IMG/VR virus record: IMGVR_UViG_3300020442_003401
Coordinates: 1-28,301 of that record
Length of the DNA stretch: 28,301 bases
DNA from: a virus
Direction: 5' to 3' (one strand)
Below are positions 1-28,301 of this stretch, in pieces (position 1 is the stretch's first letter; each line of letters starts with the position of its first letter). A program made the translations under genes and the position numbers. The notes beneath the pieces are model-generated. The model was given only the letters and a program-made list of their open reading frames with translations, had not been told where the DNA came from and searched no databases.

Positions 1-3000
1 TTAGAAAATGTGTAAATTTTAACATCGTGTTTTGGCAATGGAGCATAGCTAAAGTTTAATGTATCTCCTTGTGAATAACTCCATGCAGTCAATGTTACTG
101 TTTCATATGTACTGTCATCGCCATAAGTACCAATTGCTGTAACACTTTGCGGAGTGCTATCTTTTGTAAATAATTCTGCCATTTCTCTAAGATAACCATA
201 TAATTTTAGTGTAACGTTTCCACTGCTTACAGTTTTTTCTTTTACAACACCTCTAACTACTGTGCTATCATCTGTCAATGCAAAAACTATTTCGTCACCA
301 ACTGGTATATTGTTAGACCACGCAGGACTTGAACTTGTAAATTCTATTGTTGTATCTGTGAATGTGTATTCTGCATCTCTAATAATAAACACTTCAAGAG
401 TATCACCTACTTTACCTATTTGATTAGATGTCAAATCAATACGTCCATTTACTGGATCATAATTCCAATAATTTGGCACCAAATATTCACCATTCAAGTA
501 AACTAATATATCTCTCTGATAGACTTGCGATAAAATCTCAAATTGCCATTTATCAATGTCATAACTTCTATCAGCAGTAAGAGTGATTTTCTTTCTATAT
601 CCAGGATTCAATATTTTGTTGTTAACTTGTACAATAATATTATTTGCAAGTGGCAGTTTAGTATAAGGTAGCAACACAGCACCGTCTGGATTTGCTTGTG
701 TCTTAAATTCATGATGATATTTTACACCATCACCTTGGAATGATTCATCGATGACAATTTGACTAAAGTTAGGATTAACATTATTATAAACTGTATAATC
801 TATAATGTCTCCAATATTAGTGTTTGTTCCTAAACCAATATTCAATGTACCATTGATGTCAATAGGTTCTGCTGGTTCTAAATTACCATTTCTTGTAACA
901 AACATACTGTAATTAGAATCAAATTTGATATTTACGCTTAACCTAGTAGTCACTTCAGTTGCAATTATTCTATCGCTATCAATAATATCTGTTCCGCTGT
1001 TATCTATTAAAATTATATTGAGATTTTTATTAGCTTCAATAGCTGTGCTGTCGGCAAATATAAATGTATTTGTTTTCCAATCAATTGTGTATTCTGATTG
1101 ATCTATTATTCTATCACCTAATTTTGCAATAACATTAGTTTGACTTGCTGCTACACCACTTAATCCGTATTCAAGTCTTGAATCATCAGTAAGATAATTA
1201 TGAACTGTTATAATACCTTGTCCATCTTGCACTCTGTTGAATACTTGTATATCTAATGCATCAACAATTTGTCCGGGTACTTGTTCTTCAGGTCCTTTAC
1301 TTGTTGTTGGTGTGACAAAGCCGTCTCCATCAACTGTAATATCTCCTGATTGTATACCTGTAGCAGTTGAACCTGTAAAATCTCCTCCTGCTAGTTCAAC
1401 ATCAAAACTTGTAAAGTCAGGTGTTGTTGTACCGTCACTAGTAGATTTTCTAAATATTATAGTATCGCCTGTTCTGTTTGCAACGTAAGGGATGTCAGTT
1501 AATACATTGTATTTTTCTAAAATATCACTTATAACAATACTAGTAGTAATACCGTCACCTGTTATTGGTTGCATTACAGCAAACGGAATATCTTCATTTG
1601 CTGTAGGCCAACTACTGCTATCTAATCTAATTGGATTATCGCTTGCGCCAGCAGATACACTTTTGAAGTACACATTGTATTCAACATTTGCTTCTAACGG
1701 CAATGCTAAATCTAACACATTTGTACTACCGTCTAGCACAAATATTTCATCATCAAATTTACTGTCAAATGTATCAAAAGAGCTTGAACCAAATACATCA
1801 GTATCAAAACCTAATGTGTTACCAAACGAAATAGTGTCTATTTGCACACCACCGTAATCAACTCCGTCCATAACTTGTGCTAAGTCAACACTGCCATCTT
1901 CGTTAGTTCCCAATCCAGGCATGCCAGCATCAGGTTTATAAAAATAACTAATTCTATCAGCAGCATTTAACATACTTGCATTTCTATAATAATCAACAAC
2001 TATAGATGCATTTAATGCAGGTGCTTCTGTAAATGTGATGGTTCCTAAATTTCTTGTGTAACCTACACTTGTATCTTCTTTATTTCCAGGTGTGTATTCG
2101 CTACTTAATGCTTCTACTCCATCTACTGTAACTACAATTTTTGCTTTTCTAGTATCAATAGGCCATTTAAGTGTAAATTCTTCCTGGGCACCAGTACCTG
2201 TAAATGTTTCGTTAGGCACATATAAACTAGTGAATACAAGAGTACCACTTACTCTATCAAACTTCATTAACATATGAGTCGATTTTGCTTTACTATTTCC
2301 TATTATTGCAACAGCTTTTGCAGGAGTACTTGGTTCGTCTTGTGTTCCATCAAAGGTTACTGTTGGAGCACTAATATATATTGCTCCTCTTGTGTCAACA
2401 TCAACTGCATTTACTGTGTTTCCAGCAAGTGACGCTGTTCCTTTTAATGTTGGGCCACCGCCGCCACTTATGATTACATTAGGACCGTCTGTCCAACCAC
2501 TGCCGCCATCAACAATTTTTATATCAGTAATTTCAAAACCAACATTATCTTTCCAATGCTTTTGTGGATAGGTATCAACAAATGGACTATAAGTTTGCAC
2601 TTCATTGTTAAACACACTAGTTTTTTCAGCAACTATACGTCCTTCATTTACATCATATCTTGGTTGTAAATCAAAGTCAGTAACACTAGACTGTGATGGT
2701 TCGATTTTGCTGTAACTACTTACATATTCTCTAACATTAGTTTTGTACGGTTTAACTTCATTGACATAATCTTGGTAATTAGAAAGATTATCGTTTTTGA
2801 ATGTAATTTTTTGTTGCAATTCGCCAACATTGTGTTTTGCTTTTACAAAACTAGTTTTGAATATCCAGTCTATGTTAACTTGTTCACTAAGTGCATATCT
2901 TACACTTGCAAAGAAAAGTTTGTTCCATTCAACTTCTAATTGATCCACAAGTATTTGATTTTGTAGAGCTTCCATAATATTACGAACTTCATTCACTGGT

Positions 3001-6000
3001 TCTCTGTCATATAGATAAGCATCAAACACTTGGTTATCAAAACCACTTTGTTCATTTTGGTATAGTAATTTAGAAAACTTAATTGTTCCATTTTGTCTAC
3101 CAATTACTTTATAATTTACAGTATAGTCAACTTCAGGTATATTGTCGATTTTTTCTAATAACAACCAACCGCCAGATCCAATATTTTCAATCTTTACTAC
3201 ATCACCAACCAAATCGGGTGTTGCATCTAAAGCATAACTACCTGGTACTAAATGTTTTATTGCAGTTGTTTCATCATAACCATTTGCATACCAATCAATA
3301 TACTGCCAATAAAGTGTTGTGTCGTATGACTGTATTCTTTCAACACTCCATTCTTTTTGAGCTGGTGTGTAATTGTATAAACTCCAGAACCCACCTATGT
3401 TGCTATCATTCTCAACAAGCACAGTGAATCTTCTTACTATTGCTACTGTATCAGCAGTATAATTTTTACCTTCATTTTCAACTACTGCACTTGTTACCTG
3501 TCCAATGTTGTTGATATACAATTGAATTTTGGCTCCTGAGCCTGTACCTCTAATATCAACAGTAGGACCTTTACGAACACTACCAGTTGTATAACTTGGA
3601 TCAACATATCCACGTCCTGGATTTGTGATAATAACACTTTTGATTCTACCATCTTGTATATCAAGAGATAACTCTGCTGTTGCAACTTTTGCCACAGCAA
3701 CAAATCTAAGTAAGTTTTCGCTTGCTATTTTCACATCATAATCATTGCTATAAACACTCGGTTGTGGATCTATTTTTTGTAATCCTGATAAATCAAAATC
3801 ATCTACAATCAAGTTGTCTTCTAATATACCATTTATTCTATCAACAATTTGTTTCAAAGCTTCAGTTTTATTAACAAACATACTTTGATTAGGTGTATTG
3901 AGTATACCATATCTACGTGGTACACTTATGTCAATATCAGGAAGTTGATTACTATTTTGATCGTAACCTACTAAACTGTCAACCCATTTTTTTACAACAT
4001 CAGCATTTGGTTTGCTTGTTGGAATACCTTCAGTAAGCAATTGATATTCGCTATGTATGTTGTTTTGTGTTTCAAACTTTTTCCATTCAACATGCAAAAT
4101 TATATCTTCGTCTTTGATTAAATTTCTAATGTTGTGTAAACCGAATTTATTGTTTTCATAAAATGCTACAAATCGATATCCTTGTCCTGCAGGATCTTGA
4201 ATTAACAATTTAACATCAAATGCACTTATTGTTCTATTATCAATTGCAGGAATTGTTCTTTTATTTTTTACCCAGAAATAATACTTGTTAGAAAATGTGC
4301 CTGTTACCGGATCGTAAATATCTGCAATTACATAACTATCATCGCCGTATTTTGATGATCCGCTTACTCCAGCAGCTAATCCTTCTACAGTATCAGCAGT
4401 AGAATCCCATTCAGTAGGCAATAAATCACTTTCTACCCATTCATATACATCCACTTCAAAACTAGGTAAAGGTGTATTCCAATTGTTGGTTTTATATTCT
4501 AAACCGCGCTGTCTAGTATTGAACCATTTAATTGTGCTTAGATCCCACCACAGTTTGCCAACGTAATTACTATCCCAAGGTGTTTTATTTCCTGTGTTAG
4601 TGCTACCAATATTGTAAACAGCAGGATCATAATATAGTTTATAATTTAATTCTTGTTCAGCTGGTCCAGCAATTTTACCTTGTACTGGATCTATGTAATC
4701 AAGATATGTTACTAAATCGCCATTTGTTTTATCATATAAAAATACATTTTTAATTTGTGTTAAATCTACAAAGTTTTGTACAAGACTATTTTGTGTCCAA
4801 GCATTTGTATTCCTATCAGATCTAAAATCAATTATAAAACCAACATTAGTTCCAACGCCCGAACTATTAGTAAACAACGATACAGGCTGTCCAACAATAA
4901 TATGATTATCAATTAACCTAAGAGATGGCATAACTGCTGATGTTGTGTCTCTTAGATAACGCATTTTTTCTGCATATATCCAAGTATCATTATAGTTTTC
5001 AAAGATATAAACCTGTCCATTATCTTTGACTCTATCTTTTATTTTAGTTGCACTATTATCAAGTGTTGTAGCATCGCTATCAAAAATAACTTCGCTGATA
5101 TTATCACCATTGATGCTCATAACAGCAAGTTTATTTTTACTAAAGTCTAAACTGTAACCAAACTGTTCATTGGATTCTCCTTTTGGAGAAAACAATTCTT
5201 GTTGCCATAAAAATTCAGGATTGTTGCTATCAAAGTTATATCTGTAGATGTATACTTTACCATTGTTTAATCCTGTAACATCATTAAGTGTTGCACCAAC
5301 TGCAATATCTTGCCCGTTATCCGAAACTGCTATTGCACTAGCAAAATTTTCTTCTAATTTTACATCTCCGTCTATGTTAGATTCGTATACATAACGTCCG
5401 GTGTTGTTATCAAATCTATACACACTTACTCTGTTTATTTCTGTTGCACTGAAAAATCCTGTTATTGCTATAACATTACCATCTTTGCTTACATCAAAAC
5501 TTTTACCAATTTCTACTGCACCACCTAATCCTACACTGTCACTTTCTAAAGCAGTAACATCTCCTAGATTTGGTACAAAACCGACGTAATCAATGTATTG
5601 ATCTAAAACTTCCCACTCATCAGCACTACCTGGTTCTATACCGCTACTAGCAAAAATTGTTGTATTTGCTTTGTATAAAATATATCCAGCAAAAACTATT
5701 TCGTTTGGATAATATGTTTTTAACGGATCAAACGTTCCTTTGTAATTTGTGTCTCTTGAATATCTGAAAGAATTAACATTTGCTAAACTATTTTCAATAA
5801 AATAAATGCGTCCTTGATCTGCTATACTTCTAACATAAAATTTGTGAACTAGGTCAGTAGTAAATGCAGATTTAATTGCAATACCAAATTGTTCGTTAGA
5901 TCTTGCAACAGGTGAAAGAATAGTTGTTTCTAGTTTATATGTTGTAACATCTTTTTTGTATACATGTAATACACCTTGATTTGTGTAATTACTAATTGTA

Positions 6001-9000
6001 CCCGACTGATCGGCTTGTAAAGAATCTACTAACTGCCAATCTTGTGATAGTGTGCTAATAGTGCTATCTGCAATACCTGCAGGTGTGTCTCTTAATGCTT
6101 CCCACAGCGTACCTCTATCACTTACAATATCGCCTTGTAAGTAAGAAGATGTAGCGTCAAACTCTCCAGCATACTTACTACGCACATCACTTGCATATGG
6201 TGCACCTACTAAAATGTATTGTCCATTGTCAGTAACTTCTACTGCTGTTCCGAAACCTGCTCCAGTATCATACAATACACCAGTTGCAAGAAGTCCTGTG
6301 TCAATTGTGTGTGTTCCCATTGCAGTTGTATCAACAGGTGATGTTAATGCTTTATCAGTGTAAATATCAAACGATGTTGTTGTAATAGGATTCACATAAT
6401 AGTAATTGTCATTTAATGCAGTCAAACCTTCTGCACTGCTTATTAAAATTCTTTGTCCTGCTTCTAAGTTATGTACGACAGGAGTAAAAATACGGCCCGG
6501 ATTAGCATTTGTAATAGTTTCGATTGCAACAGTTTTAATAGCATTAGGTTCTAATGTTTGTAACAATACATATTCTAATGCTTCACTTAACCTTGTATAA
6601 ACAGCAACTTTACCGTTAAGTCCAACGTCAGGCATTCCAACTGCTAAAACTTGGTTGCTACCACTAGCTGAAAATGCAGTTCCAAATCCTGAATCATTTA
6701 GTCCTTCTTCGTTTGGTATTTCTGCTTGTAATGAAAATACCGGACTATTTTCTATAACTTCACTTTGTGTATTTCCGTTATCATCTAACCATAATTTTTC
6801 ATTTTCATTTATATCATAGTCAATTAACAGACTGTTCACATCAGAAATATTATCCAATCTACGTCCATTTAATTGAGAAACTATGCCTTGGGTACTATCG
6901 CTTAGATCAATAGCATCGTCGCCGATATCTTTATTAGTATAAAATTCTACAACATTTAACGATACACTTCTAGCGGACCAAAATCCATTCAGGTCTTCAT
7001 TAATATTATTAATACCAATTATTTCACCTGTGGTAAACGGAACTGCTCTGTCAAAAGTTGCAGTAAAGCCTAAATCGCTTTTTTCAATTTTGTTAATACG
7101 TGCAGGTGATTGTATATGTTTGTAAACATTCCAACTTTGTTGCACTTCGGGAACCCAAATATAAGTATCTAGATCAACTGTGTTTATATCAAAACTTAAA
7201 ATATCAGTAAGACTACGTGCTAAGAAGTTTACTTGATCAAGTGCAACATAGCCGCCTGTCTTTGTGTATTCATCTAAACTTGCACTTGTTGGAAATGGTG
7301 CATGATTATAATCACTTGTTTTCAGATATACATCTGCTTTAGGATATTGATATACCAAATCAGTTCTTGTTTGATCAACAGTATTTACAAGTTCAACAGT
7401 TTGTGGTTCTATTCTAAATTTCTTTTCATCTAATTGATATTCAACTTCATCAAAACTATCTGTAGCACCATATTGTCCAACTCTAATAGCCCATTCTTCA
7501 TAAAATTCTAAACTATCTTTGTCAGCATCTCCTAACTTATCAAACAACTTGGTAAGTGAGTTTTTAGTACCTTTGTCTTGAATCATACCTTGATAGAATT
7601 TGTATTGTGCTACATCATCATTAATAATATTTTCTAAATATTGACGTTTTTGATATCCTATTAAATGCTGTGCTAAACGCTGTTGTTCGCTATCAAAGTT
7701 ATCAGTATCTAAATCATAAAAATCTGTAAACTGGTTAGCTCTATAATCCCAGTTTGGTAACAATGTACTTTCAGGACGTTTAGATAATTGATTCCAATTG
7801 TTAAAATTAAATTCTTCTGTACCACTATGAGTTACAGTAGCGGTATAATAAAATTGTTTGTATTTTACAAGTTCACCAATAAAATAATCTTTCCAAGATT
7901 CCCATTCTGTTACAAGAGCTTCGTCATATGTAAAACCAGGAATATTAAGGCTTCCGTTCCAATTGTCAGTTCTATATCCAACAATTTTGATTCGTTCTTG
8001 TCTATATCCTGGTTCTGGATCGTATATTGTATCATTGAAAACAGTTGTGTTGTCAATTAGTACAACATGTTCTTTTTGTACTAATGGTAATTTTACAAAA
8101 TATATTCCTTCTGCATTTGCTTGAGGCAGGATACCAAATTGGTTTGTGTTATCCCTTTGAATATTAGTAAAAGATCCTCTTAATTTAGCAGAGTCAGCTC
8201 TCAAAACTTCTAAATCATAAAAGTTATCAAAAATATTATCAACAACATAAAAGTCTCTGTTAAATGCAAGTTTATTTGCACCTGGACTTAGAACTATAAT
8301 ACTATTTGTAGCCCAATTCTGCGTAGTCCAAAACAAAAATTCTTTTATTGCTAAAATAAAATCTTCAATAGATTGCGTTTCTCTATTATTATAATCAAAA
8401 GTGAATCCTTTTTCAAGTAAACATTTTTCATATCCTAATATAAAATCTACAACATCTTGTTTATCAGTCAACACTGTTCCATAATCTAAAGTGGTTTTTT
8501 CTGTAGAAAATCTTTTTCTAATTAATGCAGTTGCACCACCTGTAATTGGTAATTCGCTTAGTTGCGAATAAAATGAAGGATTAAATGTTTCTGTAGAAAC
8601 ATGGTTTTCATTGACTCTAAAAAATCTATTATTATACTTGACAATTTTTCCAGCTACAAGAGTTTTATCTTCTGACCATTCTATAAAACTATCACTAATA
8701 CCGCCTACATTAATTGCACTGTCATTAGCACTTTCAAAAGGTTTATATATTTCAAAAAACGGGTCTTCTTTATCATACCCAGAAACTTTATATCCTTTAC
8801 TTAATTTTTCAATAATTAATCCACTATAAGATACTATTTCATTAGCACTACTAGTGTTCAAGAATATTTTATAATTTTCTTGAGGTACAAAAACATTGCC
8901 TGCATTAAGTGGCGTTCTACTATCTAGAACAAGTTTTAATTTATCTTTGTCTGCAAAGCCACCGAGTTTGAAACCCATTTGTGAATTAATATTTGTAATA

Positions 9001-12000
9001 CGATTGATATATCTTTCATAATTTGCATCAATATTCGATGTAAGATAATTTTCTATATAATTTATTAATCCTACTGTTTGATTCACAGTGCTGTTAGTTT
9101 TTGTTTTAGGAAAAACTAAATCAGCAGCTCTAATTGCTTTTTTATTGTTGTAGGTATAATTGCCTGCTAAATTTCTTGTTGTTCTTGAACGATCAAATCC
9201 TATAGCAAACACTTGAGACGGTCTATTCAAAATCATAGCAACTAACAAACTAAATGCATAATCGCTGCTACGTCTCCATGCTGTTTCAATAGGCGCTTCG
9301 TCACCAAACTTGAAAAAGTCATTTCTCATTGTTGCATAACTGAATTCTTTTGCGTAACCACTTTGCAAAGGATCAACAAGTTGCCCATATGGATTTACAG
9401 GCAAATGTTTTGTTAAGTTAGGTCTAACAAATTTATTTTTTACAACTATAGGTTTTCCTGGCTCTTTTACATATCCTTTTTCAATATCTTTCCACATAAC
9501 AAGATTATCACTTGTATATGGTGCAGGACCATATTGTGTTTCCCACCAACTTGGTTTGACACTGATACCTAGCATTTCCCAAGGAGTCATATGCGGTCTG
9601 TCTGTATCATAAGCCATTTTATAAACAGCACGCCAGCCACCAGGTAATTTTTCTCCTGTTGGGCTTATACTTCTACTGTAATTGTAAGTAAAGCCGTCTC
9701 CTTGTACAATAAAATCATTAGATGTATAATCTGGATTTCCTACCAAAGGCAGCCATTTAATAAAATCACTTATTAATATTTTGTCCATAGATTTTTTATC
9801 TATGTTTGATTTTCTATAGTTGCCTTCTATAAAATCATGTACACAGAATACATTTTCGTCATAGCTAACTTTTAGGTTATTGTAAATTCTTTTTTCAAAT
9901 TCTAAAAGTATTTCATCTCTATAATCATTATATGCAACAGTAATACTTCCATCATGTCCTCTAATAACATTAGTAGCATTTGAATAACTGTTATCTACCT
10001 CCATCGTTGGAGCATAAGCAGGATATAATCCTAACTTAGTTGGTGTTTGAGGAACAAAACAACCTTCTGTATTTTCATATTCGTATATTTTTATAATATC
10101 ATCAACTTGTTTTGTTGCAGAAATATCTACAAAACCGTTATCAGTAAATGTATAATCTATACCATATGTTAGTTGAATGTCATTTAGATATACTAACACA
10201 GATTTTTTGCTCACAGTGTTTATATTAAAAACTTGTGACAATGCATAAAAATTAATCCTATCATCAACAACATTATATTCTAAAAGTTTATTACCGCCAA
10301 ATGCAAGCATATCTGTGCTATAAAATGGCATGCTTTTTGTTTTGCTGTTTGTAAGATCAACTAAAAGTAAATCTAGATGCTCTTTTGCACTTCCTACAAA
10401 AGAACTTGCACCTGCTGCTGAAATCAGATCTCTTTTGAATTTACTATATTCTGTTTTTGCTAACCTAATAGCCTTTACTACATTTGCTTGCTTATCAATC
10501 AAATGATATAATGATAAATTAATAGGACCACTATGTTGTAAAAATTTTCTTCCATATTTGCTGACCTCGCCTAAATCTCTTAAATTACTAGGTCCAGGTT
10601 GCATGCCGTTGAATCCAGGAATCTCTACAATCATTCCATCAACATGATCATTTACTTGTCCTAAAGTAAATTCAGTAAGATTATTATTTAGAGGATTTCT
10701 TTCTAAATTATATGGTATTTCATAATGACCTTGATTTGTTTTTTCAGCACTGCTTTTTGTTTTTATTATTATGACGTCTTCGGATTCTAATTCATTTACA
10801 AGATTTACTTTTCTAATATCTAAATCGTCAACAAAATTCCAATCAACACCTTGTACTAAGAATTTGTTATTAACAAAAACTTTACATACTAAATCGGTTA
10901 AATTAGCACTGTTTTTGTACACATCAATTGGGAAACGATTTGCCATATCGTCACCGGTATATTTTCTAATCACATACTGGCTACTTAATTCATTTGCTTT
11001 TGTCCAGGCATTACAATAATATTCTGAATCATTTTTTGTTTTTTTCAAAAATAATTCGTCACTGTTTATATAAATTACAGCATTGTTTAATTCATATTCA
11101 TATTTTTGTGTAAGTAGATTAAAGTCAAAAACAATATCGCCAACATTGTTGATATTTTTGTATGATAAAGGAAATCCAAGTTCAGGATCATTTGTGCCTG
11201 ATCCAACACGATAACTGAAAATGCGGTTACCGCTAAAATCATTAGCAGGGTAATATGTTTCATCTCCAATGCTGTATCCGTTGCTATCATACAAATCAAA
11301 TTTTGGTGCTTGATTTATTGCTGTTTTATCTTGTGCTGCTAGCCATTCGGTACCATTGTACCAAAACATTTTTCCAGCATTTTTATTACCATCTTTTACA
11401 AGCACAGTTTCATCTGTAACAGGATTAGTATCGCTTGTTTCTACTAAACTAATTTGTGTAGTGTTTGTATGCAGTATAAATTTAACTTCATAAATTTTAC
11501 CATTTACTAGAGAGTCAGGATCTGCTGTAAACAATATACGCATACCTTCAACTATATCAATACCATCAATATTATATCCAGCCTGACCTTCAATTGTGCT
11601 AAAAACATCTTTTGTAAATGTATCAACTAAATCTACAGATAATTTTGCTTTTGCTCCATGGTTGTACAAACGCAGATTAGGCTCAAATTCAATAATAGGA
11701 CGTTTTGCTCTAAATGATTCATCAAGATCAGAATCTTGTTTATTCAAAGAAGCACTAAGTTCTATAACGTCTTTATGGAACCAACGGTTATATCTTGACC
11801 AACCATTTTTACTATCATCTCCTCTGTTTACACAAATGTAATCTTTTGTTCCTGCAAAACTTTTTGCATCACCAAAAGGTACTCTATCAAATCCATTTGT
11901 ATCAAAAGGAATAAGTGTATCTTGTGTAAAGATAGCAGGTACAGATAAGTCACTTAATGGAACAAGTTTTATACCTGTGCCAACACCTTCTACATAATAC

Positions 12001-13046
12001 AATCCTTGTTCATAACTTTCTGGTGTTACATTTCCTTGAAAGTATACTTTCATACCATTTGAAAAATCCCAACCTTCGCTTGTACGATAAGTTTTTTTAC
12101 CTAGTATTTCTGTTTCTACATCTATTTGAGAATTTTCTTCAATATCAAAAATATTAAACACACCGCTTGTGTTTATATCTGTTTGACTTATGTAATAAAG
12201 TGTTTCTGGTGCATTCATTGGAACGGTAAATTCTAACACACCTTTTTCTACAAAGCCTTCGTCTATAGCATATGCTCGATCTTTAAGTACACCAGTATCG
12301 TCGTCTGTGATTTCTACACCATCTTCATATAATGTGGTTATCAAACTACTATCAACAACGTCTACTGCTGGCTGAAAAGCTCTACTGATTGCAATGCTTA
12401 TTGGATGTCCTGGACAATCAATTTCAAATCTATAGGTCTGTCCTCTGTACAATTTCAATGTAGGATTTCTTGACAATCCATTTGGTGTAAACAGATAAGC
12501 AACATTATCGTCATCTGTTACAGTTGTAATTGTGTATGTGCTTTGTACTTGTAAACTTTGTCCTCTTACTGGTACTTCTTGTGGTCCATTTGGTAACCAG
12601 TAATACTCTCTAAAGTTTGTAAATTTGTCCCAATCAACATGTGGATCCCATGCATAGAATTCTTGTCTGTTTAGCAAACTATGATCTTTTGTAGTTGATC
12701 TTAGTGTTGATAATTGTCCTATATAATCATTGTAGTCTTTGTAAAACTCAACATTACCTATGTTGTCCTTGATTACCACTGCTGGTTCTAATTGATAGTT
12801 TTCTCTATTAGCACTTACATCTGGCAAATACGTATCTGTTGATTTTACGGCTTTTGCTTCTCTACGTCCAGCAAATGCATTAATTTTTTCAACTACACCC
12901 GGTGTTGTAACTTGATCTATAGTGCTACCTAAAAACTTTTTATTAGGATCAGTTCTAAAATATCTTGGCAAAAAGTTTGCACTTTTGCCTGTATTAGAAT
13001 CTCCTGTTGGTAAAGGATATTCTTGTTGATCGTCTTCGTATGCCAT
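1..13046 (-). CDS. Giant virion structural protein, baseplate/tail-fibre region (partial, 3' end outside window)
   Basis: The frame opens at the ATG at 13046 and runs without a stop to the window edge, giving at least 4348 codons. The first and last codons are in the same phase. The start shares TAATG with the gp6 stop. Residues about 25-140 resemble the N-terminus of very large structural proteins of marine T4-like phages, with a segment reading YFRTDPNKKFLGSTIDQVTT. A cupredoxin-like segment with DCPGHPISI lies near residues 195-220. Between about 2110 and 2750 are repeated beta-propeller-like units such as FGTAVEVTDNGQYILVGAP. VGKLWWDLST occurs near 2830. Two Gly-rich repeats lie near 3130-3180 and 3500-3570. 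The C-terminal part carries beta-sandwich units of the type 'VYLNGEYLVPNY'. Position after gp6 fits a gp7/gp8/gp10-like wedge or fibre-network component. This role is inferred from context; no enzymatic motif was seen. Confidence 0.85.
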   Translation of the reverse strand, partial: MAYEDDQQEYPLPTGDSNTGKSANFLPRYFRTDPNKKFLGSTIDQVTTPGVVEKINAFAGRREAKAVKSTDTYLPDVSANRENYQLEPAVVIKDNIGNVEFYKDYNDYIGQLSTLRSTTKDHSLLNRQEFYAWDPHVDWDKFTNFREYYWLPNGPQEVPVRGQSLQVQSTYTITTVTDDDNVAYLFTPNGLSRNPTLKLYRGQTYRFEIDCPGHPISIAISRAFQPAVDVVDSSLITTLYEDGVEITDDDTGVLKDRAYAIDEGFVEKGVLEFTVPMNAPETLYYISQTDINTSGVFNIFDIEENSQIDVETEILGKKTYRTSEGWDFSNGMKVYFQGNVTPESYEQGLYYVEGVGTGIKLVPLSDLSVPAIFTQDTLIPFDTNGFDRVPFGDAKSFAGTKDYICVNRGDDSKNGWSRYNRWFHKDVIELSASLNKQDSDLDESFRAKRPIIEFEPNLRLYNHGAKAKLSVDLVDTFTKDVFSTIEGQAGYNIDGIDIVEGMRILFTADPDSLVNGKIYEVKFILHTNTTQISLVETSDTNPVTDETVLVKDGNKNAGKMFWYNGTEWLAAQDKTAINQAPKFDLYDSNGYSIGDETYYPANDFSGNRIFSYRVGSGTNDPELGFPLSYKNINNVGDIVFDFNLLTQKYEYELNNAVIYINSDELFLKKTKNDSEYYCNAWTKANELSSQYVIRKYTGDDMANRFPIDVYKNSANLTDLVCKVFVNNKFLVQGVDWNFVDDLDIRKVNLVNELESEDVIIIKTKSSAEKTNQGHYEIPYNLERNPLNNNLTEFTLGQVNDHVDGMIVEIPGFNGMQPGPSNLRDLGEVSKYGRKFLQHSGPINLSLYHLIDKQANVVKAIRLAKTEYSKFKRDLISAAGASSFVGSAKEHLDLLLVDLTNSKTKSMPFYSTDMLAFGGNKLLEYNVVDDRINFYALSQVFNINTVSKKSVLVYLNDIQLTYGIDYTFTDNGFVDISATKQVDDIIKIYEYENTEGCFVPQTPTKLGLYPAYAPTMEVDNSYSNATNVIRGHDGSITVAYNDYRDEILLEFEKRIYNNLKVSYDENVFCVHDFIEGNYRKSNIDKKSMDKILISDFIKWLPLVGNPDYTSNDFIVQGDGFTYNYSRSISPTGEKLPGGWRAVYKMAYDTDRPHMTPWEMLGISVKPSWWETQYGPAPYTSDNLVMWKDIEKGYVKEPGKPIVVKNKFVRPNLTKHLPVNPYGQLVDPLQSGYAKEFSYATMRNDFFKFGDEAPIETAWRRSSDYAFSLLVAMILNRPSQVFAIGFDRSRTTRNLAGNYTYNNKKAIRAADLVFPKTKTNSTVNQTVGLINYIENYLTSNIDANYERYINRITNINSQMGFKLGGFADKDKLKLVLDSRTPLNAGNVFVPQENYKIFLNTSSANEIVSYSGLIIEKLSKGYKVSGYDKEDPFFEIYKPFESANDSAINVGGISDSFIEWSEDKTLVAGKIVKYNNRFFRVNENHVSTETFNPSFYSQLSELPITGGATALIRKRFSTEKTTLDYGTVLTDKQDVVDFILGYEKCLLEKGFTFDYNNRETQSIEDFILAIKEFLFWTTQNWATNSIIVLSPGANKLAFNRDFYVVDNIFDNFYDLEVLRADSAKLRGSFTNIQRDNTNQFGILPQANAEGIYFVKLPLVQKEHVVLIDNTTVFNDTIYDPEPGYRQERIKIVGYRTDNWNGSLNIPGFTYDEALVTEWESWKDYFIGELVKYKQFYYTATVTHSGTEEFNFNNWNQLSKRPESTLLPNWDYRANQFTDFYDLDTDNFDSEQQRLAQHLIGYQKRQYLENIINDDVAQYKFYQGMIQDKGTKNSLTKLFDKLGDADKDSLEFYEEWAIRVGQYGATDSFDEVEYQLDEKKFRIEPQTVELVNTVDQTRTDLVYQYPKADVYLKTSDYNHAPFPTSASLDEYTKTGGYVALDQVNFLARSLTDILSFDINTVDLDTYIWVPEVQQSWNVYKHIQSPARINKIEKSDLGFTATFDRAVPFTTGEIIGINNINEDLNGFWSARSVSLNVVEFYTNKDIGDDAIDLSDSTQGIVSQLNGRRLDNISDVNSLLIDYDINENEKLWLDDNGNTQSEVIENSPVFSLQAEIPNEEGLNDSGFGTAFSASGSNQVLAVGMPDVGLNGKVAVYTRLSEALEYVLLQTLEPNAIKTVAIETITNANPGRIFTPVVHNLEAGQRILISSAEGLTALNDNYYYVNPITTTSFDIYTDKALTSPVDTTAMGTHTIDTGLLATGVLYDTGAGFGTAVEVTDNGQYILVGAPYASDVRSKYAGEFDATSSYLQGDIVSDRGTLWEALRDTPAGIADSTISTLSQDWQLVDSLQADQSGTISNYTNQGVLHVYKKDVTTYKLETTILSPVARSNEQFGIAIKSAFTTDLVHKFYVRSIADQGRIYFIENSLANVNSFRYSRDTNYKGTFDPLKTYYPNEIVFAGYILYKANTTIFASSGIEPGSADEWEVLDQYIDYVGFVPNLGDVTALESDSVGLGGAVEIGKSFDVSKDGNVIAITGFFSATEINRVSVYRFDNNTGRYVYESNIDGDVKLEENFASAIAVSDNGQDIAVGATLNDVTGLNNGKVYIYRYNFDSNNPEFLWQQELFSPKGESNEQFGYSLDFSKNKLAVMSINGDNISEVIFDSDATTLDNSATKIKDRVKDNGQVYIFENYNDTWIYAEKMRYLRDTTSAVMPSLRLIDNHIIVGQPVSLFTNSSGVGTNVGFIIDFRSDRNTNAWTQNSLVQNFVDLTQIKNVFLYDKTNGDLVTYLDYIDPVQGKIAGPAEQELNYKLYYDPAVYNIGSTNTGNKTPWDSNYVGKLWWDLSTIKWFNTRQRGLEYKTNNWNTPLPSFEVDVYEWVESDLLPTEWDSTADTVEGLAAGVSGSSKYGDDSYVIADIYDPVTGTFSNKYYFWVKNKRTIPAIDNRTISAFDVKLLIQDPAGQGYRFVAFYENNKFGLHNIRNLIKDEDIILHVEWKKFETQNNIHSEYQLLTEGIPTSKPNADVVKKWVDSLVGYDQNSNQLPDIDISVPRRYGILNTPNQSMFVNKTEALKQIVDRINGILEDNLIVDDFDLSGLQKIDPQPSVYSNDYDVKIASENLLRFVAVAKVATAELSLDIQDGRIKSVIITNPGRGYVDPSYTTGSVRKGPTVDIRGTGSGAKIQLYINNIGQVTSAVVENEGKNYTADTVAIVRRFTVLVENDSNIGGFWSLYNYTPAQKEWSVERIQSYDTTLYWQYIDWYANGYDETTAIKHLVPGSYALDATPDLVGDVVKIENIGSGGWLLLEKIDNIPEVDYTVNYKVIGRQNGTIKFSKLLYQNEQSGFDNQVFDAYLYDREPVNEVRNIMEALQNQILVDQLEVEWNKLFFASVRYALSEQVNIDWIFKTSFVKAKHNVGELQQKITFKNDNLSNYQDYVNEVKPYKTNVREYVSSYSKIEPSQSSVTDFDLQPRYDVNEGRIVAEKTSVFNNEVQTYSPFVDTYPQKHWKDNVGFEITDIKIVDGGSGWTDGPNVIISGGGGPTLKGTASLAGNTVNAVDVDTRGAIYISAPTVTFDGTQDEPSTPAKAVAIIGNSKAKSTHMLMKFDRVSGTLVFTSLYVPNETFTGTGAQEEFTLKWPIDTRKAKIVVTVDGVEALSSEYTPGNKEDTSVGYTRNLGTITFTEAPALNASIVVDYYRNASMLNAADRISYFYKPDAGMPGLGTNEDGSVDLAQVMDGVDYGGVQIDTISFGNTLGFDTDVFGSSSFDTFDSKFDDEIFVLDGSTNVLDLALPLEANVEYNVYFKSVSAGASDNPIRLDSSSWPTANEDIPFAVMQPITGDGITTSIVISDILEKYNVLTDIPYVANRTGDTIIFRKSTSDGTTTPDFTSFDVELAGGDFTGSTATGIQSGDITVDGDGFVTPTTSKGPEEQVPGQIVDALDIQVFNRVQDGQGIITVHNYLTDDSRLEYGLSGVAASQTNVIAKLGDRIIDQSEYTIDWKTNTFIFADSTAIEANKNLNIILIDNSGTDIIDSDRIIATEVTTRLSVNIKFDSNYSMFVTRNGNLEPAEPIDINGTLNIGLGTNTNIGDIIDYTVYNNVNPNFSQIVIDESFQGDGVKYHHEFKTQANPDGAVLLPYTKLPLANNIIVQVNNKILNPGYRKKITLTADRSYDIDKWQFEILSQVYQRDILVYLNGEYLVPNYWNYDPVNGRIDLTSNQIGKVGDTLEVFIIRDAEYTFTDTTIEFTSSSPAWSNNIPVGDEIVFALTDDSTVVRGVVKEKTVSSGNVTLKLYGYLREMAELFTKDSTPQSVTAIGTYGDDSTYETVTLTAWSYSQGDTLNFSYAPLPKHDVKIYTFS

Positions 13047-23706: not shown

Positions 23707-24537
23707 TTGGCAAGAAAAGTAAATTATTTGAACAACAAAGATATGCTTGCTGAGATACACAAATCAAAAGCAACATTTTGTAGTTACATAGAACCAGAAT
23801 ATGCAGACTATGATATCATTTTACCACAAATTGAAAAAATTAATATACGAACAATAGCAGAAGCAAAAAGAAACAAAGCAAAAAAGCAAGGCACAAGAGC
23901 TTATGACGCTGCCAAAGCTGAAGGAAAAAAGGTTAAGTTAGCAGAATTTGAAGTAGATTATAAAACCATAAACAAAACTGACTTAATTTTTAGAGTTATG
24001 ATGTTTGACCATATACCAGATGAGCCAGGACGTAAGAAAAATCCAAAAACGATAGCAGATCACAAAACAAAACTTAACTTTCCACCATTTCAGCACTATA
24101 AATTTGATGATGATGACAATTTAATTTGTGTAGGCAAGTCACATTGGACGGGTGGAATGGAGAATGGACATTTTAGTAAAGAACATGGTAAAGCAACAAA
24201 TAAACTTGCTATGATGTGGCTCAAACTAGTAGACAGATATGCCACTAGAGGCAATGTGCGTGGTTATACCTACAAAGATGAGATGAAAGGCCAAGCAATA
24301 TTACAACTAGCACAGATAGGACTACAATTTGATGAGAGTAAATCCAACAATCCTTTTGCTTATTATACCGCTGCTGTTACTAATAGCTTTGTGCGGGTCA
24401 TTAATTTAGAAAAACGTAATCAAAACATACGTGATGACATACTTGAAATGAACGATTATAGTCCAAGTTACACAAGACTACATCAAGGCGAGTGGGAAGC
24501 AGCACTTAAGAGACAAGAAGAACAAAAATCAGGTTGA
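23707..24537 (+). CDS. 55: Late-transcription sigma factor gp55
   Basis: The 276-residue product is the T4 gp55-like sigma factor that directs host RNA polymerase to late promoters. The recognisable part is the region-2-like block at about 184-256: NVRGYTYKDEMKGQAILQLA, then SKSNNPFAYYTAAVTNSFVR and NLEKRNQNIRDDILEMNDYS. T4 gp55 is only 185 residues. The extra length here is N-terminal: residues 45-80 are very Lys/Ala-rich, and 100-155 contain MFDHIPDEPGRKKNP and SHWTGGMENGHF. The C-terminus (EWEAALKRQEEQKSG) is charged and shows no obvious hydrophobic clamp-binding tail like that of T4 gp55. The gene has its own sigma70-type promoter and diverges from the late tail operon it should activate. 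Confidence 0.93.
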   Translation: MARKVNYLNNKDMLAEIHKSKATFCSYIEPEYADYDIILPQIEKINIRTIAEAKRNKAKKQGTRAYDAAKAEGKKVKLAEFEVDYKTINKTDLIFRVMMFDHIPDEPGRKKNPKTIADHKTKLNFPPFQHYKFDDDDNLICVGKSHWTGGMENGHFSKEHGKATNKLAMMWLKLVDRYATRGNVRGYTYKDEMKGQAILQLAQIGLQFDESKSNNPFAYYTAAVTNSFVRVINLEKRNQNIRDDILEMNDYSPSYTRLHQGEWEAALKRQEEQKSG

Positions 24538-24562
24538 TTTTGTTTGTTTTTCTTGTTATAGT
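24534..24562 (+). promoter_or_regulatory. Putative sigma70-type promoter for gp47-gp46
   Basis: TTGATT (24534-24539, overlapping the gp55 stop) and TATAGT (24557-24562) are 17 bp apart. A second TATAGT at 24562-24567 could serve as an alternative. It lies in the 48-bp gap before gp47 and could give gp47-gp46 expression separate from gp55. Confidence 0.5.
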
Positions 24563-24574
24563 ATAGTTCAATAC

Positions 24575-24578
24575 GGAG
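24575..24578 (+). promoter_or_regulatory. Ribosome binding site fixing the TTG start of gp47
   Basis: GGAG is 7 bases before TTG at 24586. The next in-frame ATG is codon 15, which would remove metal ligands Asp10 and His12, so TTG must be the start. Confidence 0.8.
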
Positions 24579-24585
24579 AAATCAT

Positions 24586-25599
24586 TTGTTTAAGAAAGCA
24601 GCAGTGTTTACTGACATACATTTGGGTATGAAGGGTAACTCACGGGTTCATAATCAGGACTGCGAAGCATATATTGATTGGTATATCGAGCAAGCCAAAG
24701 CTAATAACTGTGAAACAGGACTCTTTTGTGGTGATTGGCATCATAACAGAAACAGTTTGAACCTCACAACTATGGATACAACCATCAGGTTGTTAGAAAA
24801 ACTAGGCAATGCCTTTGAACAGTTCTATATGTTTGCAGGTAACCACGACTTATACTACAAAGACAAGCGAGATGTGAAGTCAACTGAGTTTGCAAAACAC
24901 ATTCCAGGTATTACAGTGGTAGATGAGATACAGGTGATTGAAGATGTAGCACTTGTTCCGTGGTTAGTAGGTGACGAATGGCGTAGAATTGAGAAATTAC
25001 AAGCCAAATACTTGTTTGGGCACTTTGAACTGCCCAGCTTCTATATGAATGCAATGGTACAAATGCCAGACCACGGTGAACTAAAGTCGGAACACTTCAA
25101 GAATCAAGAGTATGTGTTCAGCGGACACTTCCACAAGCGGCAGAAGCAGGGTAAGATCCACTACATCGGTAATGCTTTCCCACACAACTATGCAGATGCT
25201 TGGGATGACGACCGTGGTATGATGATATTGGATCGTGAGAACAATGCAGAACCAGAGTATATCAACTGGCCAGACTGTCCCAAGTACCGTACAGTCAAGT
25301 TATCACAACTGATTGATGAGCAAGAAACACTTATCAAGCAAAACATGTACTTGAGAGTGAACTTAGATATTGATATTAGCTACGAAGAAGCAAGTTTTAT
25401 TAAAGAAACCTTTATGGAACGCTTTGGTTGTAGAGAAATTACATTGATTCCACAGAAACAACTAGAAGAAATTAATACAGACTTGGATATAACGCAATTT
25501 GAGAGTGTCGATCAAATTGTTAGCAAAGAAATACAAAGCATTGACACAGACAGCTTTGATAAAAAGCTGCTTTTGGACATTTATAACGAACTAGTATGA
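24586..25599 (+). CDS. 47: Recombination endonuclease subunit gp47 (Mre11/SbcD family)
   Basis: The 337-residue product (T4 gp47: 339) is the nuclease subunit of the gp46/gp47 complex, which processes DNA ends for recombination-dependent replication and host DNA breakdown. All metallophosphoesterase motifs are present: DIHLG (Asp10, His12), GDWHH (Asp50), AGNHD (Asn86, His87, Asp88), GHFELP (His146) and SGHFHKR (His181, His183). The C-terminal part (about 240-337) is the capping/coiled region that contacts gp46. Translation starts at TTG. The stop overlaps the gp46 start by ATGA, so the two subunits are probably translated together. Confidence 0.96.
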   Translation: MFKKAAVFTDIHLGMKGNSRVHNQDCEAYIDWYIEQAKANNCETGLFCGDWHHNRNSLNLTTMDTTIRLLEKLGNAFEQFYMFAGNHDLYYKDKRDVKSTEFAKHIPGITVVDEIQVIEDVALVPWLVGDEWRRIEKLQAKYLFGHFELPSFYMNAMVQMPDHGELKSEHFKNQEYVFSGHFHKRQKQGKIHYIGNAFPHNYADAWDDDRGMMILDRENNAEPEYINWPDCPKYRTVKLSQLIDEQETLIKQNMYLRVNLDIDISYEEASFIKETFMERFGCREITLIPQKQLEEINTDLDITQFESVDQIVSKEIQSIDTDSFDKKLLLDIYNELV

Positions 25600-27374
25600 T
25601 AAAAATTAGAGACTTAACGGTAAAAAACTTTATGAGTGTGGGTAATGTTACCCAGGCTGTTGACTTTAACAAAGAACAGCTTACTCTAGTGCTTGGTGAA
25701 AACTTAGACCAAGGAGGTGACGACACTGGATCACGAAACGGAACAGGTAAGACAACAATTATTAATGCATTGTCCTATGCCTTGTACGGCCAAGCACTGA
25801 CCAACATCAAGCGGAACAATCTTATCAATAAGACAAACAGTAAGGGGATGTTGGTCACACTTAATTTTGACAAAGAAGGTAATAGTTATCGTATTGAACG
25901 TGGTAGATCACCTAACGTTCTCAAGTTTTATATCAACAATCACGAACAAGTTGATGCAAACATTGATGAATCACAAGGTGATAGTAGAGAAACACAAAAA
26001 TCTATTGCAGAATTACTAGGTATGAGTCACGATATGTTCAAACATATCATTGCATTGAACACATATACCGAACCTTTCTTGAGTATGAGAACAAATGACC
26101 AACGTGCTATTATAGAACAGCTACTTGGAATCACCATCCTTACAGAAAAAGCAGACTTACTCAAAGAAAAAGTCAAACAAACTAAAGATTTTATCACAGA
26201 AGAAACATTAAAGATCAATGCTATAGAGGCAAGCAACAAAAAAATTGAACAAAGCATTGAAACACTGGCTGGTAGACAACGTGCATGGCTTGCAAAACAA
26301 AAACAAGACATTGAAAAATTACAAACTTCAATCGAAGAGCTTGAAAAACTAGACATTGATGCAGAATTAGAAGCACACGACAATTTAACCAACTGGACAG
26401 AACTAAATAATCGTCTTACTAGCCTTAACAAAGAAAAAGCAACACTTGAAGCAGCATTGTTGAGGGCAACTAAGAGTGTTGACAAGGCAGAAAAGGATAT
26501 TACAGATTTAGATGACGCTATTTGTTATACTTGCGGTCAAGAACTTCATGCAGACAAGAAAAAAGAAATTGAAACACGCAAACAAAAAGAATTAACTGAT
26601 GCACTTGCATATCAAACTGAGGTTGCTGATAAATTAGAAGCAACCATGGGCTTTCTTGATGAAATAGGACACATAAACGGACGTCCTAATACATTTTATG
26701 AAAGTGCAAAAGAAGCATACGAACATAGAAACAACGTAGATAATCTTAACAAAACACTGATAAGTAAAAAGCAAGAAGAAGATCCTTATCAGGCACAGAT
26801 TGACGACTTAAAAACAACAGCATTGCAAGAAATTGATTGGAATGATGTAAACACATTAACAAATTTGAAAGAACACCAAGAGTTTCTCCTTAAACTTCTG
26901 ACCAACAAAGATAGTTTTATACGTAAAAAAATAATTGATCAGAACTTGGCGTACTTGAATAACAGGCTAACATATTATTTAGACAAACTAGGCTTACCTC
27001 ATCAGGTCAAGTTCTTAAACGACTTGTCTGTTGAGATTACTCAACTAGGACAGGACTTAGATTTTGACAACTTATCAAGAGGCGAACGCAACAGGCTAAT
27101 ACTAGGCATGAGTTGGTCATTTAGAGATGTATGGGAATCATTATACCAAGGCATCAACTTATTGTTTATCGATGAGTTAATTGACTCTGGTATGGACACT
27201 GCTGGTGTTGAAAATAGTTTAGCTGTGCTCAAGAAGATGGGCAGAGAAAGACAGAAGAATGTATTCCTAATCTCTCACAAAGACGAACTTGTTGGTAGAG
27301 TCAATCATGTTATGAAAGTTGTTAAAGAAAATGGCTTTACTAACTATGAGAACGATATTGACATTATAGAATGA
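25596..27374 (+). CDS. 46: Recombination endonuclease subunit gp46 (Rad50/SbcC family ATPase)
   Basis: The 592-residue product (T4 gp46: 560) is the SMC-like ATPase partner of gp47. In order: Walker A GSRNGTGKTT at 45-54; two coiled-coil arms, about 180-300 and 320-430; a zinc-hook CYTC (Cys310, Cys313) at the apex; the ABC signature LSRGERNRL at 493-501; Walker B LLFIDELIDSGMD with Asp526-Glu527; and the switch histidine in FLISHKDEL. All key residues are intact, so it should be active. The start overlaps gp47 by four bases and no strong ribosome site is seen, so coupling is likely. The stop overlaps the next small gene in the same way. Confidence 0.97.
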   Translation: MIKIRDLTVKNFMSVGNVTQAVDFNKEQLTLVLGENLDQGGDDTGSRNGTGKTTIINALSYALYGQALTNIKRNNLINKTNSKGMLVTLNFDKEGNSYRIERGRSPNVLKFYINNHEQVDANIDESQGDSRETQKSIAELLGMSHDMFKHIIALNTYTEPFLSMRTNDQRAIIEQLLGITILTEKADLLKEKVKQTKDFITEETLKINAIEASNKKIEQSIETLAGRQRAWLAKQKQDIEKLQTSIEELEKLDIDAELEAHDNLTNWTELNNRLTSLNKEKATLEAALLRATKSVDKAEKDITDLDDAICYTCGQELHADKKKEIETRKQKELTDALAYQTEVADKLEATMGFLDEIGHINGRPNTFYESAKEAYEHRNNVDNLNKTLISKKQEEDPYQAQIDDLKTTALQEIDWNDVNTLTNLKEHQEFLLKLLTNKDSFIRKKIIDQNLAYLNNRLTYYLDKLGLPHQVKFLNDLSVEITQLGQDLDFDNLSRGERNRLILGMSWSFRDVWESLYQGINLLFIDELIDSGMDTAGVENSLAVLKKMGRERQKNVFLISHKDELVGRVNHVMKVVKENGFTNYENDIDIIE

Positions 27375-27613: not shown

Positions 27614-28039
27614 ATGAGTTGGACATACAAAGGCAAGAAGGTTGAAACAATACCTGACGAATACGAAGGCTTTGTATATCTGATTACAAACAAAAAGACA
27701 AAACAAAAGTACGTAGGCAAAAAACTAGCAAGGTTCAAAACTACAAAGCCACCATTAAAAGGCAAAAAGAACAAACGCCGAGGCTACAAAGAAAGCGATT
27801 GGCGTGAATACTGGGGAAGTTCAGATAGACTGAACGAAGATGTAAAACAACTAGGCGAAAAAAACTTTACTCGTGAAATACTTTACTACTGCAAAAGCAG
27901 AGCAGAGATGAGTTACATTGAAGCACGAGAACAGTTTGACAGGCGAGTATTAGAAACAGACGAATACTACAATGGCATCATCAATGTTAGAGTTGGTGGT
28001 TCTAAAAAACTACGCCAGGCACTACTAGAAAACAAATAG
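27614..28039 (+). CDS. GIY-YIG-like endonuclease
   Basis: The 141-residue product begins 3 bases after the previous stop. Residues 19-37 carry a GIY-YIG-type start: GFVYLITN, a short turn, then KYVGKK, matching the two-strand pattern of the family. A basic stretch follows (about 44-60), then YWGSSDRL and FTREILYYC. The conserved glutamate of these nucleases could lie in MSYIEAREQF. Proteins of this size and pattern are annotated as putative endonucleases in marine T4-like phages. Roles could be host DNA degradation, repair or homing; no DNA-binding module typical of the larger homing enzymes is visible, so a stand-alone nuclease is more likely. There is no good ribosome site, which suggests coupling to the upstream gene. 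Confidence 0.8.
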   Translation: MSWTYKGKKVETIPDEYEGFVYLITNKKTKQKYVGKKLARFKTTKPPLKGKKNKRRGYKESDWREYWGSSDRLNEDVKQLGEKNFTREILYYCKSRAEMSYIEAREQFDRRVLETDEYYNGIINVRVGGSKKLRQALLENK

Positions 28040-28059
28040 GCTATATAACGAGCTCTAAA

Positions 28060-28262
28060 AAAATCCAAGATCCAGCCGAGGTAATGCTCGTGGCCGGTGG
28101 TGTGGTATGCTCGCGTGAAGAAACATACGATAGGTTTTGAAGGATTGTGGCTCTGAGAAAAAGCAACCACAGGGTAAGTGTTTTCGCTTGTTAGGGAATT
28201 ACTGCCTTCCGTTGATATGACGAAGCTAGAGTAGGAGGATACAGGTCAACCGCCTCCGACTT
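28060..28262 (+). ncRNA. Candidate structured non-coding RNA (unidentified)
   Basis: After the nuclease gene there is no convincing frame to the window end. Base composition rises to about 49% GC over 28081-28260, counted by hand, against about a third in the surrounding genes. Several hairpins are visible: GTATG/CATAC (28105-28109 with 28124-28128), TTGTGG/CCACAG (28145-28150 with 28167-28172), AAGTG-TTTT-CGCTT (28176-28189), and a long one pairing GAGTAGGAGG (28229-28238) with CCTCCGACTT (28253-28262). I looked for tRNA, tmRNA, 5S, SRP and RNase P signatures and found none. The strand is assumed from the flanking genes. The limits are approximate. Confidence 0.4.
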
Positions 28263-28301
28263 ACGCTACACCGTATAATTTAATTTTATACGCTACACCG
28301 T
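28262..28301. repeat. 27-bp-period direct repeat with internal inverted repeat at the window edge
   Basis: TACGCTACACCGT occurs at 28262-28274 and again at 28289-28301, so the period is 27 bp and the second copy is cut by the window end. Between them GTATAA (28273-28278) and TTATAC (28286-28291) form an inverted repeat around a 7-base AT spacer. It may continue outside the window as an array. It could be a protein-binding site or a repeat left by assembly at a contig end. Confidence 0.65.

Follow-up and report, generated by a model that had tools for sequence, protein, structure and literature searches.

A covarying, probably undescribed structured RNA family at the end of a recombination gene block in mostly marine phages

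GOLLD, an RNA of unknown function that is known from marine samples, and ROOL, a phage-encoded RNA with multiple pseudoknots and no known protein partner (PMC12286853), are the large RNAs with which the RNA reported here is best compared, and the methylophage Melnitz carries a permuted (two-piece) tmRNA with a glutamine riboswitch (PMC9004378). The RNA lies at the right end of a fragment, 28,301 bp long, from an uncultivated virus (the window, by which we mean the whole stretch of DNA that was analyzed). Like GOLLD as described in PMC12286853, it combines a variable 5′ part, a linker and a conserved 3′ part; GOLLD, however, is often longer than 800 nt and lies near tRNA genes, whereas the present RNA spans ~350–430 nt, lies behind recombination genes and has no Rfam match. 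It resembles ROOL in being phage-encoded, in its multiple putative pseudoknots and in having no known protein partner, yet it matches ROOL in neither sequence nor structure in Rfam and is not found in a tRNA-island context. In particular, no Rfam 15 family, the GOLLD and ROOL covariance models included, matched the window, loci L006 and L040 or nine further loci, in keeping with the initial annotation, which had named no matching RNA family.

The likeness to Melnitz is that this marine myophage, too, encodes a structured RNA and has a relative of the SegE nuclease; unlike the Melnitz tmRNA, the present RNA is negative with both ARAGORN and Rfam, which detected no tRNA or tmRNA in the window or in complete copies, and neither a tRNA-like domain nor a tag reading frame was found. 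Group I introns with GIY-YIG homing endonucleases likewise place a structured RNA beside a GIY-YIG gene, and a mobile intron had been hinted at initially on account of this neighborhood. Here, however, no host gene is interrupted, the RNA lies between complete genes, no Rfam catalytic core of a group I or group II intron was matched, SegE is of the free-standing type, and the RNA is also found away from the nuclease, so that the hint is not supported. RNA antitoxins of the ToxI type share with the present RNA short repeated elements within a structured RNA, but in ToxI these are tandem pseudoknot units, whereas here they are two dispersed 7-nt repeats, and no toxin gene was identified; the only Rfam match to ToxI was at chance level and lay elsewhere in L006.

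Conserved structure at the right end of the window

In the window, genes for a late sigma factor (23707–24537), a gp47 relative (24586–25599) and a gp46 relative (25596–27374) are followed by a 79-codon open reading frame and by a gene for a SegE-type GIY-YIG endonuclease (27614–28039; Pfam PF19835 SegE_GIY-YIG, E=6.7e-33), all on the + strand, whereas structural and baseplate proteins are encoded on the − strand. (Note that many phage records, as well as PHROG 447, label the SegE family, PF19835, spanning 27614–28036 in the window, as ‘NAD synthetase’, apparently a misannotation that has been propagated; and that a 4,347-amino-acid protein encoded at 3–13046 on the − strand matches a virion structural PHROG, phrog_10938.) The initial annotation had described a G+C-rich gap that follows the GIY-YIG gene immediately and contains no credible gene, and such a gap is indeed present from 28040 to the end of the window. 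Its G+C content is raised (47.1% at 28040–28262 vs 34.3% for the window, a value matched by only 0.8% of windows of the same length), although the figure originally given, 49%, was too high, the content over 28040–28301 being 45.4%. Forward frames of 40 homologues are free of stop codons for at most 44–54 codons, and the lengths of the core, 192–201 nt, do not step by 3, which argues against a conserved protein frame; antisense frames extend for up to 100 codons in single sequences with medians of 43–55. Thus the absence of a credible coding frame was borne out, and the homologues show no conserved protein frame over the same bases, the presence of which the initial annotation had regarded as decisive against an RNA.

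Homologues with 92–100% identity to 28040–28301 (+) run ~100 nt past the end of the window, into a conserved 3′ domain that corresponds to positions 3689–3785 of L006. As judged from these alignments, 28040–28301 is the 5′ three quarters (~262 of ~360 nt) of a conserved non-coding RNA truncated by the contig end, and the complete RNA, which is present in a single copy per phage, begins with a modular 5′ part, continues with a central arm whose length varies and closes with a conserved 3′ domain. In the variable arm, an AT-rich hairpin is flanked by a direct repeat of 13 nt, TACGCTACACCGT, at 28262–28274 and 28289–28301; the contig stops precisely with the second repeat copy, which is probably where the assembly broke. 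This AT-rich hairpin, in reversed orientation, fills the arm of several copies of the second RNA type described below (L060, L064, L073 and L080).

Within the window, comparison of the homologues supports a series of paired elements, all on the + strand. Helix P1 (5′ strand CGAGC, 28049–28053; 3′ strand GCTCG, 28109–28113) is the strongest, with changes on both sides at four of its five pairs, 100% standard pairs in 27 sequences and E below 1/40 under a tree-based null; its five versions (CGAGC/GCTCG, TGAGC/GCTCA, CGGAC/GTCCG, GGGAC/GTCCC and CTGAC/GTCAG) contain zero mismatches. The enclosed hairpin P2 (28065–28100; CCA..CC.GCCGAG(GTAATG)CTCG..GC..GG.TGG) has 100% standard pairs and both-side changes at two pairs, and it behaves as a shared module that is present, or swapped, in other RNA types (L231 and L330); a further version, seen in L088, recurs in L184, L225, L229 and L239. 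Hairpin P3 (28121–28137), an AAA/TTT stem around CATACGATAGG that is AAG/CTT in most relatives, covaries at one pair (GC19/AU7; E=0.025), and hairpin P4 (28147–28170; GTGG..CCAC) shows both-side changes among UA, GC and CG at two pairs, one with E below 1/40. The irregular stem-loop P5 (28173–28206; GGT..GT..TTC.CT..AG..GAA..AC..GCC) is partly supported, with three pairs changed on both sides and an outer helix in which only 79% of cells are standard pairs, whereas the pairs of hairpin P6 (28210–28222; CGTT(GATAT)GACG) are nearly invariant and hence carry no covariation information. Hairpin P7 (28234–28257; GGAGG..CCTCC) is present in 27 of 27 sequences, with only A-U to G-U changes. It corresponds to the last hairpin of the initial annotation, which had been placed at 28229–28262: only the inner GGAGG/CCTCC helix (28234–28238/28253–28257) is conserved, and the outer bases belong instead to the separate variable-length arm that begins at 28260. 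In this arm (28260–28301; complete in L006), the strand CTTACG (28260–28265) would pair with CGTAAG, of which the record holds only CGT (28299–28301); an inner hairpin is formed by 28273–28278/28286–28291, and the basal pair covaries (CG/UA/AU; E=0.025).

To score this 44-pair structure we used an alignment, A2, of 27 sequences including the window. Standard pairs occupied 97.1% of cells, vs 92.4 ± 0.3 in shuffles, and changes on both sides affected 12 pairs and 61 cells, vs 6.1 and 17.1 in shuffles; when the structure was slid by 1–3 columns, standard pairs fell to 37–54%, with one to three both-side-changed pairs and two to seven such cells. Relatedness among the sequences stays in the shuffle controls and is largely removed by the slid controls and by a tree-based, R-scape-like null in which each column's own substitutions were placed randomly on the tree in 40 simulations. 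Pairs of P1 (CG23/GC3/UA14) and P4 (UA27/GC10/CG3) exceeded all 40 simulations, and E=0.025 was reached by one pair in P3 and by the basal pair of the variable arm; covarying pairs are thus found above the phylogenetic background. Richness in hairpins, which had been offered originally as a sign of structure, did not hold up as one: of 200 dinucleotide-shuffled versions of the part of the RNA in the window, 191 folded at least as well (z=+1.58), neither strand exceeded its shuffles, and the complete L006 RNA did no better (z=−0.19). We therefore dropped folding energy as evidence, and the case for structure rests on covariation, which among the homologous gaps is clear. We regard it as virtually certain that the element is conserved beyond chance and are highly confident that it is a structured RNA.

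Two RNA types and the concerted repeats of the 3′ domain

SegE relatives were collected from IMG/VR, and the 80 best loci were inspected. In 24 of these 80 the sequence that follows the nuclease gene can be aligned to the window, usually with 92–100% identity and down to 83%; sequence patterns derived from two halves of the RNA each retrieved 58–76 IMG/VR contigs, and homologues of the window type (type 1) amount to ~70 contigs. The remaining SegE loci have a different-looking, diverged RNA at the same place (type 2), found in at least 120 contigs, which brings the family to ~200 uncultivated, mostly marine phage sequences of both types. In type 2 (83 distinct copies) separate pairs are significant, for example 90–178 (UA55/CG28) and 91–177 (AU48/GC33), with 100% standard pairs, and a long-range helix links the 5′ part to the 3′ domain (220–432, UA53/CG24; 219–433, GC51/AU26; 97–100% standard pairs). 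This helix can be read directly in single copies (ATGCTAC/GTAGCAT in L064, TTGCTCC/GGAGCAA in L166 and CACC..GTGC/GCAC.GGTG in L200), and in a cross-pairing check at least seven pairs formed in 75% of own combinations vs 52% of foreign ones, a separation that is only moderate. When a covariance model was built from the 3′ domain of type 2, it detected that of type 1 in the expected position and on the expected strand (L141, E=9e-6; L098, 7e-4; L155, 8e-4; L144, 0.025), and in mosaic copies (L231 and L330) the window-type hairpin P2 precedes a type-2 3′ domain. Because of these cross-type matches and mosaics, types 1 and 2 very likely belong to one family.

The second conserved part, which follows the variable arm (L006 3689–3785), contains the hairpin TTCGCCCG-GCAA-CGGGCGAA. 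The domain comprises two hairpins, GUAGGU/ACCUAC and GGAACC/GGUUCC, together with a pair of 7-nt segments, r1 and r2, that are modeled as unpaired; sequence comparison indicates that the distal side of the GUAGGU/ACCUAC hairpin pairs also with the 5′ part. Sequences that have GCAGG carry the partner CCUGC or CCUGU (L200, L219, L227 and, where the RNA is present, L324–L331), in support of the first hairpin; the second is GU/AU-variable and is replaced by CATACG..CGTATG in L227 and L331. The nested 3′ domain predicted by RNAalifold, in which GUAGGU pairs with a 3′ AUCUAC and AGCC with GGCU, was rejected, since the GCAGG sequences restore pairing to CCUGC/CCUGU within the domain, and not to AUCUAC, and since GGCU varies while AGCC is constant. 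The loop GGUCA and a later UGAC could form a pseudoknot; as both strands are invariant, covariation offers no proof of it.

Segments r1 (after ACUC) and r2 (after AUCU) lie ~60 nt apart and vary between phages, but they are the same within one phage: in type 2 they are identical in 149 of 154 copies over 7 nt and in 153 of 154 over 6 nt, with 11 different 7-mers (ACAUGAA, ACAUAAU, ACGUGAA, ACAGAAA, ACAGGAA, ACAUGAU, GCAUAAA, GCAUGAA, GUAUGAA, ACAUGAG and ACAUAAA). Type 1 shows the same relation (AA30/GG10) with the 7-mers GAAUAAU, GAAUGAU and AGAUGAU. The base 3′ of r1 is nearly always G and that 3′ of r2 mostly A, and a G at the third position of r1 is tracked by r2 alone among all columns. 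A target-site duplication left by an insert was rejected as the origin of the repeats, because their flanks and their place are constant while the 7-mers change together. No fixed complementary site for r1/r2 is present within the RNA, no convincing complementary site was found in two large phage contigs, and the complement was not enriched at gene starts in five records.

A blastn search of 50,697 isolate phage records returned no match over the conserved parts of the RNA; short matches to staphylococcal phages covered the AT-rich arm only and were set aside. By gp46 protein, the closest cultivated relatives are the PA5oct group (49% identity), in which gene order is partly conserved: the order late sigma factor, gp47, gp46 (23707–27374 in the window) is common to the window and Pseudomonas phage PA5oct. 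Large unannotated gaps lie near this block in PA5oct (record positions 76516–77180), and neither PA5oct nor Melnitz gave a meaningful match with the 3′-domain model. We take the carriers to form a large, mostly marine phage group with kinship to T4 and PA5oct. The 3′-domain model gave one strong match per record in long type-2 contigs and two in the Neomarinimicrobiota MAG G005, one on each of two contigs that probably represent phage DNA. Two RNA-bearing contigs, L282 (335 kb) and L283 (153 kb), are binned in a Candidatus Neomarinimicrobiota MAG (RS350); they are probably phage contigs, and the binning is possibly a hint at the host.

Genomic context and possible modes of action

The usual order of the locus is gp47, gp46, a small open reading frame, SegE, the RNA, a fast-evolving gene or nothing, and a convergent gp26-like baseplate-hub gene. 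Over ~190 contigs the RNA adjoins SegE almost constantly, and in nearly all it lies on the same strand, directly after the SegE stop codon. The RNA is more strongly conserved than the adjoining gene; the gene behind it (L006:3930–5531 and equivalents), which has no family match, is often only 25–35% identical between phages whose RNA is more than 85% identical. In L200 and L320–L322 the RNA occurs in a phage unlike that of the window and has terminase genes nearby (read in L200); its 5′ part there has diverged strongly but retains the long-range helix; in L330 it lies between the gene for a 468-amino-acid protein and a phosphoesterase-like gene; and in L326 and L328 it is 1.2 kb away from SegE. 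The unrelated contexts of L200, L320–L322 and L330 indicate that the RNA is not tied to SegE, and its occurrence at several genome places shows it to be a unit in its own right that has changed position. The RNA has no evident promoter of its own, and hairpins resembling terminators are no more frequent downstream of it than in controls (23 of 139 vs 22%), an intrinsic terminator at the 3′ end being found at single loci only.

The initial proposal of a possible new phage structured RNA gains support from homologues that covary, contain no conserved protein frame and match nothing in Rfam 15. What is new is the RNA family; a wider group of large phage RNAs with unknown function is already known. 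We read the RNA as a previously undescribed family that probably stands alone and may act in trans. In the account that we favor on balance, transcription at the end of the gp47-gp46-SegE gene block yields an undescribed structured non-coding RNA, which is set free as a stable molecule that stands alone and would act in trans, with r1 and r2 offering two copies of one recognition sequence to a single partner, either an RNA that pairs with them or a protein. We consider it likely that the RNA is transcribed and stands alone. The identity of r1 and r2 within a phage, and their difference between phages, would suggest that one partner recognizes both in trans, and recognition is probably host-dependent because the segments change among close relatives; action in trans through r1/r2 is nevertheless put forward tentatively, at somewhat less than even chances, and with no complementary partner found in the RNA or in two large phage contigs, any such partner is a guess. 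Doubtful, if worth stating, is the stronger idea of a new class of trans-acting phage RNA, built from swappable modules and moving as a unit, that uses two identical, rapidly re-targeted 7-nt segments to bind one host- or phage-specific partner twice.

Nearly all copies stay behind SegE, however, which a role in cis would equally explain. The RNA might act as a 3′ untranslated element by which the gp47-gp46-SegE mRNA is protected, processed or ended, a reading to which we give a minor but real chance: strong 3′ structures often stabilize mRNAs, and the position of the RNA directly behind the SegE stop codon, on the same strand, fits such an element. It accounts less well for the copies that lie behind other genes or 1.2 kb from SegE and for the lack of terminator enrichment, and the covarying modules and concerted r1/r2 repeats go beyond the needs of a protective hairpin. 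The adjacency could also mean that the RNA works with SegE, for example by guiding the GIY-YIG nuclease, by serving it as a cofactor or by taking part in SegE mobility. This is improbable, as L200, L320–L322 and L330 have the RNA without SegE beside it and the SegE homologue of Melnitz (L082) has no match to the R1 model above chance nearby; to our knowledge, moreover, no RNA-guided GIY-YIG system has been described.

A 5′ leader or riboswitch is likewise disfavored. In many loci a gene on the same strand does start ~100–150 nt behind the RNA, but ten loci have only the convergent baseplate-hub gene downstream and no room for the fast-evolving gene, and the RNA is therefore not a leader of that gene; the divergence of the downstream gene relative to the RNA, and the lack of a match to any riboswitch family, point the same way. 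Conservation at the level of DNA, as a replication origin or a recombination or packaging site, would fit the neighboring recombination genes, the terminase genes that adjoin the L200 copy and the AT-rich inverted repeat, flanked by a direct repeat, of the central arm. It is very unlikely, since it is RNA that is marked by compensatory changes in long-range helices with other hairpins inside them, and since the orientation of the conserved 3′ domain with respect to SegE is always the same. Very unlikely, too, is a group I or II intron, two-piece tmRNA or other known catalytic RNA diverged beyond recognition, which the permuted tmRNA and riboswitch of a related marine myophage (PMC9004378) and a nuclease neighbor reminiscent of intron ORFs might suggest, but which is opposed by complete copies that are negative with ARAGORN and with Rfam even at permissive E-values, in which no interrupted gene, tag frame or tRNA-like ends were seen.

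Large structured RNAs are rare in phages, and the known ones, GOLLD and ROOL, form unexpected RNA-only assemblies. The concerted variation of r1 and r2 provides a concrete handle for identifying the partner of the RNA described here, and action in trans, if it occurs, would make this RNA a widespread factor in marine phage infection, one that annotation of proteins overlooks.
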